DNA from: Acidobacteriota bacterium | GTDB taxonomy: Bacteria > Acidobacteriota > Terriglobia > UBA7540 | Assembly (NCBI GenBank): GCA_021838785.1 | Contig: JAKCCV010000001.1 | Span: 124,001 to 188,000 of the forward strand | DNA length: 64,000 bases | Direction: 5' to 3' | Part shown: in pieces, positions 10,721 through 13,664 of the stretch | Layout of the letters: every line of letters begins with the position of its first letter | How positions within the stretch are numbered: the first letter of the stretch is position 1 | Program-made: the position numbers and the translations under genes | Notes under the pieces: model-generated | Databases searched by the model: none | The model's input: the letters and a program-made list of their open reading frames with translations, nothing else | What the model was told of the DNA's origin: nothing

Positions 10721-11287
10721 ATGGCACGAGTGGCACGGGAAGTTGTCCAAAAAGCGGGCGTGGACGTGGACAAGCTGTTGGACTTGTTGGTCCGCAACGC
10801 ATCTGCAGAACTCACCACCTACTATTACTACACCATCCTGCGCGTAAATCTGATTGGTCTTGAGGGCGAGGGCTTGAAGGAAATCACTGAAGACGCTCGC
10901 ATAGAGGATCGCAATCACTTTGAGGTGTTGGTGCCTCGGATATACGAGCTGGGTGGGAAAATCCCGGATGATATGAAGGCGTTTCACGACCTGTCCGCCT
11001 GCCCGCCAGCGCACCTGCCCAAAGACCCGACGGACATTAAGGCCATGCTCCAGGTGCTGGTGAGCGCCGAGCGATGCGCCATTGCCGGATACAACGCGAT
11101 TTGCAACATGACGGCGGGCAAGGATCACCGCACGTACGACCTGTCACTCGCCATCTTGCATGAAGAAGTGGAGCACGAATCCTGGTTCAGTGAATTTCTA
11201 GGCGAAGGGCCCTCCGGCCACTTCCGCCGGCAAGGGACTGGCTTTTCGCGCAATTCGCCTTACACCTCAAAATTCCTCATCCCCTAA
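10721..11287 (+). CDS. Dps-like ferritin (DPSL / thioferritin type)
   Basis: 188 residues. A four-helix ferritin-fold protein expected to form a dodecamer that oxidises and stores iron at the expense of peroxide. Ferroxidase ligands are visible as SAELTTYYYY (E30), DARIEDRNHFE (E62 and H66), AERCAIAGYN (E117) and LHEEVEHESWF (E148, E149, H152). Two cysteines, C94 (LSACPPAH) and C119 (AERCA), sit 25 residues apart beside this site, the signature of the DPSL/thioferritin group rather than classical Dps. The ATG has ACGGAGGT at good spacing. It lies about 140 bp before the UGA-containing peroxiredoxin in the same orientation, suggesting a peroxide-defence unit. Confidence 0.85.
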   Translation: MARVAREVVQKAGVDVDKLLDLLVRNASAELTTYYYYTILRVNLIGLEGEGLKEITEDARIEDRNHFEVLVPRIYELGGKIPDDMKAFHDLSACPPAHLPKDPTDIKAMLQVLVSAERCAIAGYNAICNMTAGKDHRTYDLSLAILHEEVEHESWFSEFLGEGPSGHFRRQGTGFSRNSPYTSKFLIP

Positions 11288-11429
11288 CGGACGCTCCGAG
11301 CCATCCGTGGGTGCGCCGATAGGGAAAGGGACAGCAGAAGGCAGTCCGTAACAAAGACGCCGGGGTTCCGTCATGCGGTCAACTTTTACGTCCATTCAGG
11401 CACGATAGCAGCTTTAGCGGAGGATACGA

Positions 11430-11912
11430 ATGGCCCTTAAAGCAGGTGACATCGCTCCCACGTTCACGCTGAAATCCGCAACGGGTGAAACGCCGGGAGA
11501 GTTTAAGCTCTCGGATTACGCCGGTAAGAACTTGGTGATTCTGTTCTACGCGCTCGACTTCACGCCGGTCTGACAGAACGAACTGTCGGCGTTCAACGCG
11601 CAGCTTGCGAAGTTTGCCGACTCCAACGCCCAGGTCGTGGGCGTCAACACGGACACCGTTTTCTCTCACATCGCCTTTCAGAAGTCGCTCGGTGGAATCA
11701 AGTTTCCTCTTGCCACCGACCGTTGGCCTTACGCGGAGACGGCCAAAGCTTACGGCATCTTCCCTCCCGCCAAGCACGATATTCCTTTTGTTAACGATCG
11801 TGCGATTTTTATTGTGGGCAAAGACGGAAAGATTGCGTGGGCCAAGGTTTATGAATTGCGGCAAACGCCGGAGGTCGGAGAGGTTCTGGAGGCTGTCCGC
11901 AAGCTGAAATAA
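11430..11912 (+). CDS. Selenocysteine-containing peroxiredoxin (in-frame TGA at the peroxidatic position)
   Basis: Start ATG 11430 with AGCGGAGGA upstream; 160 codons to the TAA at 11910-11912. Codon 48 (11571-11573) is TGA, exactly where the AhpE/BCP-type peroxiredoxin motif DFTPV-Cys places its peroxidatic residue. Frame and homology continue on both sides: [20 protein letters not shown] before, and [37 protein letters not shown] and the [12 protein letters not shown] strand with its conserved Arg after. The protein has no Cys at all, so without selenocysteine it would lack a redox group. A SECIS-like hairpin follows at 11587-11619. It would reduce H2O2 or alkyl hydroperoxides. The alternative is a point-mutated pseudogene, but the exact position argues against that. 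The sel genes are not in the window. Confidence 0.85.
11587..11619 (+). promoter_or_regulatory. Candidate bacterial SECIS element
   Basis: Within the coding sequence, 13 bases after the TGA, an interrupted stem forms: CGGC/GCCG (11587-11590 with 11616-11619), AAC/GUU (11595-11597 with 11612-11614) and CGC/GCG (11599-11601 with 11607-11609), closing the loop AGCUU at 11602-11606. The loop begins 28 bases after the UGA and has G at its second position, both within what is accepted for bacterial SECIS elements read by SelB. The three short helices and asymmetric internal loops make the structure moderate in strength. It was found by eye; no energy was computed. Confidence 0.55.
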
Positions 11913-11987: not shown

Positions 11988-13664
11988 CTAACGGATGTAG
12001 TCGCGGTAACTCTCGAGCGTCAGTTGAATGTCCGGGGGCTCTTCCTTAATGACCCGCGCGATGATGGCGAGCGTCCGGCGCACGGCTTCCTGCTTGTCAG
12101 GCACACTCGAGTCGCGTTCCAGCGTGGTGTTCAAATCGTAGGTTCGCGCCGCGTTATACAGCACGTGAAAAAGCTCGAATTCCTCTCGCAAAGATTCCGG
12201 CGCGTCTCTGGCTTCATCAAAAAGCGCATCGAGCGGCCGCCCCGGCCCAGCAAGCCTTTCCAGCATCTCAACGTACTGGCGCTCGGCGCGATCGTCCACC
12301 ACGCGATAGGCATTGTACGCCGTCTCGCGCTTTCCCTCGGGCGTTTCACCGATCAGCAACCGCTCCATAAACGGCTCGAGCAAAACATGATTGAGGACGC
12401 TCGGGTCGGCAGGGTTACGTTTGAGGAGGATAACCGCGACCAGCCGCAAGGGTTCGAGCGGATTGCCGAACCGGCGCGCGAGAGGCAGCACCCTGGACAT
12501 ATCGAGCATTGCGCGCGCGTTGTCAAAAGCGATGAGCCGTGCCGCGCGGCGCCGAATCTCGGACTCGGATTCTCCCTGAAAGGCCGGGCAATCAGAATGT
12601 GCCAGCGTGGGGCCCATGGCATCCAGAACATGCGCGTGACGAGCGATGAATTCGGCTGTCACGTCGGGGACGTTCTCGTGTTTGGCAGAGGCCAGCTCGC
12701 AAATCGCCGGTGGAAAGTTCTCCACCAAGTTCGTCCGCAGATAGAAAAACTTTTCCGACGTGTACGCATAAGCCTCGGGAGGATGACCGAGGTCTAACTC
12801 CCCTAGCGACAACGAAAACTCATCTTGGCCAAGGCTCATCACCCGCAAGCGGGCATGGGGAGCCCCGGCGTGTCGCTCGATCCAGCGATGAACTTGGTAT
12901 CCTCGCGCTCGCTCATCGGCTGAATCCTCCGCTTCCAACACGACCACGGGCTCTCCAGAGCGAGTCCTGTAAGCGTAGCGAAGGTAAACCCAATCATCCG
13001 AATGGAATCGCGTGTTGGGATAATCCATCAAGCCGTAAGAGCTGGTGGATTTGCCGGTCCCAGTGGGCGCGATGTAAAGCACGCCTCGGCCATTCATCTC
13101 GACGCAAGCACCGTGAATTGAGTGGATGCCGTACTCCGACGCGAGCCATCGCCCGACAGCCCCGAGCACCCAACTTTTGAGCTGACCGTAGTACGACGTA
13201 TTGAAGAAAATCACCGTGTTGGCCTGGCGGCTGTAATAGGCGGCCTCGGGTTCATTCGGCACCCCCACGAGCGCATAGACCTTAACCTGGGGATCTTTGG
13301 AAACGCGCCCCCCGTACTCCTTCCACTCTTGAACGCTGTGCCAGTTGTCGAGCCAAAAGTCGTAAAGATGGGGGCTGTTGGTCGTGGCTCGGACGCGCAC
13401 GCCGTGGATGACGACATCATGCGTGTGGATGGGTTCCTGGCCGACTCGCCGCTCCAAATGCCGGTACACCGTGGCTAGGAGCTTTTCAAGCAGACCGGGC
13501 GTCGAATCCACGCATTTGTTATGCCGCGCCGTCCGGCCTTTGGTTCGAGTGATGGTGTTGGAGAGGCCGAGCGGCGTGCCCGGCCACTCGGTGGAGGCAG
13601 GATCGGCCGGTTCCGGAAAATAGAATAATTCGTCCGAGGCTAATTGAAACGCAGACATGTCCAT
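11988..13664 (-). CDS. HprK-like P-loop kinase-fold protein, function unknown
   Basis: 558 residues. The centre matches the HPr kinase / PEP-carboxykinase ATP-binding fold: IHSIHGACVEMNGRGVLYIA leads into the Walker A APTGTGKST at about 199-207, followed by FHSDDWVYL near 220-228, equivalent to the conserved acidic motif. The first 170 residues and the C-terminal 200 residues (helical, with LARRFGNPLEPLRLVAVILL) are not known domains to me. HPr kinases are about 300 residues, so this is an extended relative, and no HPr or PTS gene is near. It could phosphorylate a protein or small molecule. It is divergent from the GMC oxidoreductase gene. Confidence 0.6.
   Translation of the reverse strand: MDMSAFQLASDELFYFPEPADPASTEWPGTPLGLSNTITRTKGRTARHNKCVDSTPGLLEKLLATVYRHLERRVGQEPIHTHDVVIHGVRVRATTNSPHLYDFWLDNWHSVQEWKEYGGRVSKDPQVKVYALVGVPNEPEAAYYSRQANTVIFFNTSYYGQLKSWVLGAVGRWLASEYGIHSIHGACVEMNGRGVLYIAPTGTGKSTSSYGLMDYPNTRFHSDDWVYLRYAYRTRSGEPVVVLEAEDSADERARGYQVHRWIERHAGAPHARLRVMSLGQDEFSLSLGELDLGHPPEAYAYTSEKFFYLRTNLVENFPPAICELASAKHENVPDVTAEFIARHAHVLDAMGPTLAHSDCPAFQGESESEIRRRAARLIAFDNARAMLDMSRVLPLARRFGNPLEPLRLVAVILLKRNPADPSVLNHVLLEPFMERLLIGETPEGKRETAYNAYRVVDDRAERQYVEMLERLAGPGRPLDALFDEARDAPESLREEFELFHVLYNAARTYDLNTTLERDSSVPDKQEAVRRTLAIIARVIKEEPPDIQLTLESYRDYIR

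Follow-up and report, generated by a model that had tools for sequence, protein, structure and literature searches.

A selenocysteine peroxiredoxin gene of Acidobacteriota with a probable SECIS hairpin distal to its UGA codon

The window, a 64,000-nucleotide stretch of DNA from a soil acidobacterium, contains a peroxiredoxin gene (11430–11912, forward strand) with an in-frame UGA at its peroxidatic position, codon 48 (11571–11573). We propose, with a probability of about 0.83, that this codon is translated as selenocysteine (Sec) by SelA, SelB, SelC and SelD, that the Sec serves as a peroxidatic selenolate, and that recoding is directed by a distal SECIS hairpin (11626–11644) with a second helix absorbing the distance from the UGA. 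The novelty is in the recoding signal, that is the distal hairpin with a helix between, and not in the protein. Sec-containing peroxiredoxins are an established family (PMC1088965, PMC5029168), and the protein encoded here is therefore a new member of the known TxxU peroxiredoxins. Searches of open-access papers brought up no account of a bacterial SECIS that is distal or built of tandem hairpins. Bacterial selenoproteins are predicted partly by means of a SECIS model in which the distance between UGA and loop is limited. According to the parts of two papers drawn upon here (PMC13188914, PMC12013277), some bacterial selenoprotein genes do not fit the model and there may be other classes of SECIS. 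The distal hairpin is a concrete and testable candidate for such a class. It is conserved across the phylum, and sister genes in these genomes carry the proximal type.

The reading frame comprises 160 amino acids including Sec48, and is preceded by a Shine–Dalgarno-like GGAGG (11419–11423, forward strand) located 6 nt upstream of the ATG. A sequence-only reading of this DNA had noted exactly one in-frame TGA, at codon 48 following the sequence DFTPV, and this is what is seen in the frame. The 112 codons that it counted downstream are borne out, while the number upstream is 47 and not 48. The same reading anticipated that a gene caller would split the gene, and a mechanical ORF lister indeed returns only the in-frame segment 11637–11912 (91 amino acids). 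The read-through protein matches Pfam AhpC-TSA over residues 6–137, spanning the TGA (3.3e-31). As had also been stated, it contains no cysteine, and therefore a cycle of the 1-Cys type is expected; the Sec selenolate would be the peroxidatic residue, and the resulting selenenic acid would probably be reduced by an external thiol. In 61 related genomes searched with the protein, most of the family yielded orthologues. Among the distinct family orthologues codon 48 is TGA in 21 and TGC or TGT in 12.

The RNA downstream of the UGA is predicted to form two hairpins, for which positions are numbered with the U of the UGA as 1. Hairpin 1 pairs nucleotides 15–21 with 45–51, corresponding to arms at 11585–11591 and 11615–11621 of the forward strand (the whole element spanning 11585–11621). 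Hairpin 2 (11626–11644, forward strand) pairs 56–62 with 68–74, and is closed by a loop of the GGUNN kind. In the window gene hairpin 2 has a 7-bp stem, the loop GGUCG (11633–11637) and an energy of −11.6 kcal/mol. The minimum free energy structure of the window RNA, refolded to 11646, consists of both hairpins; folds that stopped at or before 11640 truncated hairpin 2 and so showed no signal. The fold z-score of hairpin 2 alone is −3.4, but that of the whole 76-nt fold is only −1.0.

The published bSECIS model (PMC13188914) places the apical loop 16–37 nt past the UGA, with additional rules for a loop G, the stem length and an energy of at most −7.5 kcal/mol. Hairpin 2 conforms to all the rules except that of distance, its loop lying 59 nt past the UGA and thus beyond the canonical spacing. 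Hairpin 2 resembles the canonical bSECIS in its energy, in the length of its stem and in the size and GGU sequence of its loop, and differs in the position of that loop and in the presence of an intervening second hairpin. The best proximal hairpin in the window gene reaches −2.0 kcal/mol, short of −7.5 kcal/mol. A candidate for a proximal SECIS in the mid-region, GGCG-GACCU-CGCC, was rejected; it is plausible in some orthologues and weak or absent in most.

Hairpin 2 is restricted to the Sec genes. Under all the rules bar spacing it is present in every one of the 24 Sec genes that the protein search identified and in none of 14 Cys genes, and occurs in 3.9% of shuffled sequences. These counts follow the strict rules; lenient labels on the tree, which allow slips of register, were left out of them. 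RNAalifold applied to 20 TGA genes gave −15.5 kcal/mol, compared with −2.2 kcal/mol for column shuffles (z −7.5), and found nothing in the set of Cys genes. Hairpin 1 is broken in some Sec genes (L024, L028 and L029). Since the Cys orthologues lack hairpin 2 they offer a natural comparison. An independent-pairs test of Sec or Cys state against the hairpin is underpowered, since the tree has no more than 2 to 4 switches between the two states.

Selection at the RNA level was assessed by synonymous constraint, taken as codon identity among gene pairs that share the same amino acid. For codons +14 to +23 after the Sec, identity in the Sec genes is 0.89 where 0.43 is expected, a ratio of 2.06 against a baseline in these genes near 1.0–1.2. 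Further peaks at TCG(+5) and GCC(+15) correspond to the two arms of hairpin 1. In the Cys genes the ratio over hairpin 2 is near 1.0, and on this codon-level comparison the constraint at hairpin 2 is specific to the Sec genes. Both helices covary. Over 39 genes 90% of the pairs are standard, with 40 double-changed cells compared with 14.9 in shuffles (none of 500 as high); slid controls reach no more than 8. Within the close family stem 2 is almost invariant, and its covariation there is confined to one pair, 57–73. In a wider set pair 58/72 is G-C in 45 cases and A-U in 17, and pair 57/73 is C-G in 34 and U-A in 29, with the Cys genes not matched; these counts are biased because the loci were partly found with the RNA model.

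These observations can be accommodated in the following mechanism. SelB carrying Sec-tRNA would bind the GGU loop of hairpin 2, and hairpin 1 would fold away most of the extra distance, so bringing hairpin 2 near the ribosome entry. The single-stranded remainder would be about 11 nt before hairpin 1 and 4 nt after it, near the canonical path length; the start of hairpin 1, 11 nt past the UGA, is similar to the start of the stem in selD of the source genome. If this is correct, SelB can act across a longer stretch of mRNA when that is bridged by a helix. The assignment of roles could be exchanged, with hairpin 1 an ordinary proximal SECIS and hairpin 2 an accessory element for pausing or enhancement. 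Hairpin 1 is at the canonical position and covaries, and several genes have a G in its apical loop (for example GACCU). Yet a proximal hairpin conforming to the bSECIS rules, including −7.5 kcal/mol, is found in only 2 of 24 Sec genes (and 0 of 14 Cys genes), the loop of hairpin 1 is not conserved, and five genes have no qualifying hairpin there. The GGU loop of hairpin 2, by contrast, is nearly invariant, and the distal hairpin is absent from genes in which a proximal SECIS, at 23 nt, is clear. We therefore regard the exchanged assignment as unlikely, and retain hairpin 2 as the proposed SECIS with hairpin 1 as the helix that spaces it from the UGA.

A covariance model comprising the UGA and both hairpins was used to follow the distribution of the element. 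Strong matches (E below 1e-10) occur in 46 genomes of the class, from five families. A selA gene is present in 42 of these, and the other four genomes are each <90% complete. Matches in other classes are again TGA-peroxiredoxins, having the same layout with different stem sequences. A search of the phylum by protein alone confirmed the spread of the two hairpins free of model bias. It gave 60 TGA-peroxiredoxins, from which five of the PrxQ type were set aside. The remaining 55 divide into 17 with a proximal hairpin (loop 23 nt past the UGA), 33 with the distal arrangement, none with both and five with neither, at least one of the last (L166) dropping out by threshold only. The mutual exclusivity of the two types follows phylogeny in part. 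Both occur within the AFTGG subfamily, in different lineages, and therefore the position of the SECIS differs between relatives. An AFTGG-type Sec-peroxiredoxin (L065 on contig C31 of the source genome, and others in Acidobacteriota) has its TGA at the peroxidatic position, as does the window gene, but L065 differs from it in that its hairpin is proximal, the GGC loop lying 23 nt past the UGA, and in the absence of a distal one. Taken together, a class of tandem-hairpin SECIS in Acidobacteriota, where the loop for SelB lies around 60 nt past the UGA and a helix restores the geometry, is probable, and the 16–37 nt rule would then not be universal.

The L065 gene is the second TGA-peroxiredoxin of the source genome (G000); it has an AFTAG motif, and its proximal hairpin is conserved (GGCGUAUCAGGCUGAUAUCGCC). 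The TGA genes of PrxQ/BCP type (L066 on contig C9 of G000, together with L072, L073, L082 and L083) have neither proximal nor distal SECIS. They share a large-loop hairpin, CCAGUUC-(about 16 nt)-GAACUGG, possibly a third form of SECIS.

The source genome (3.42 Mb, 98% complete), whose named relatives are Acidobacteriota/Terriglobia metagenome-assembled genomes, was searched for the selenocysteine machinery, the absence of which the sequence-only reading had named as grounds for refutation. The set is complete. There is a tRNA-Sec with anticodon UCA (74.9 bits, also found by ARAGORN), selA (569.6 bits), selB (641 amino acids, 352 bits) and selD (374 bits). The selD gene has its own in-frame TGA (L018, 1501–2427) followed by an 8-bp SECIS, GAGUCCAA-GGAUU-UUGGACUC, with the loop 19 nt past the UGA. 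Two further matches to SelB, on contigs C29 and C19, are probably not a second SelB. Both resemble copies of EF-Tu; one adjoins an EF-G gene and the other is truncated at a contig end near a tRNA-like match.

That UGA48 is decoded as selenocysteine, as had been claimed, is very well supported by this machinery, by orthologues with TGA or Cys codons and by TGA acting as a normal stop in the rest of the window. Decoding by some other tRNA, either a Cys or Trp suppressor or through a reassigned code, is very improbable. A suppressor role has been suggested for unusual acidobacterial tRNAs, which is a point in favour of such decoding. Against this, of the 34 long open frames in the window 17 end in TGA, so that the genetic code is standard and TGA is not a sense codon; the full Sec machinery including tRNA-Sec(UCA) is present; and in selD itself the in-frame TGA is accompanied by a canonical SECIS. 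No convincing TGA read-through gene was found within the window besides the peroxiredoxin.

The alignment with peroxiredoxin homologues that had been proposed as a check places U opposite C in 12 close orthologues. In the tree the Cys forms fall inside the Sec forms; the state changes 2 to 4 times, according to which genes are included. The occurrence of TGA and TGC/TGT at the same codon, with Cys nested in Sec, is standard evidence for a selenoprotein and excludes error or decay. The chance of a pseudogene, or of a misread TGC/TGT codon as the earlier reading had considered, is negligible, since the TGA is kept, in intact frames, by 21 orthologues of the family that come from separate assemblies (about 20 in assemblies other than this one) and throughout the phylum. 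In one related genome the Sec-peroxiredoxin occurs twice, in highly similar copies (G001, contigs C64 and C100; L022 and L067). A partial orthologue match with an internal TAG (L081, contig C20 of G015) is possibly broken or frameshifted; the two-hairpin model also matches there. No relative was found on viral contigs, and all plasmid matches are of <60% identity.

The AlphaFold model of the protein has a pLDDT of 88, and its top matches in the PDB are Prx1. The description as an AhpE/BCP-type peroxiredoxin was only loosely right; among solved structures the nearest are 2-Cys Prx1-like, and AhpE follows closely. Mycobacterium tuberculosis AhpE (1XXU, 4X0X) is a small peroxiredoxin of similar length that matches in sequence (E 2e-14), but has Cys in place of Sec, and the 2-Cys Prx1-like structures score slightly better. 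The protein scores below every NCBIfam subfamily cut-off, including that of PrxU (NF040737; 67.3 bits compared with 270). The AhpC/TSA fold, TxxU and peroxidatic Sec are shared with PrxU of Eubacterium acidaminophilum and the Sargasso Sea family (PMC1088965), while the low PrxU score and an alanine at the proline of PxxxTxxU set it apart.

The PxxxTxxC motif is common to peroxiredoxin enzymes. In the window gene the strict form, with either C or U, is broken at the proline position seven residues upstream, which is Ala. The threonine at −3 from the peroxidatic residue and an arginine 65–90 residues past it are present in all 33 family rows. The placement in the superfamily stands despite the missing proline, on domain and fold. 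The proline position is Ala, Gly or Val in 19 of 21 Sec orthologues and Pro in every one of the 12 Cys orthologues (Fisher 2.6e-7, uncorrected for relatedness). From this sequence comparison Sec may tolerate the loss of the active-site proline, a hint that Sec relaxes this feature of the peroxiredoxin active site.

The adjoining gene upstream (10721–11287, forward strand) encodes a Dps-like ferritin of the archaeal-DPS/thioferritin type, passing NCBIfam Arch_DPS with 305.8 against a cut-off of 250, and the earlier label of thioferritin fits. Such a ferritin lies near the peroxiredoxin at several TGA loci of the family and at L103 of another family, and at none of the Cys loci among those examined. 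As neighbours, the Dps-like ferritin and the Sec-peroxiredoxin may share a role in the handling of peroxide and iron. On the other strand, 11988–13664 encodes a 558-amino-acid protein without a Pfam match that is kept near the peroxiredoxin in several relatives.
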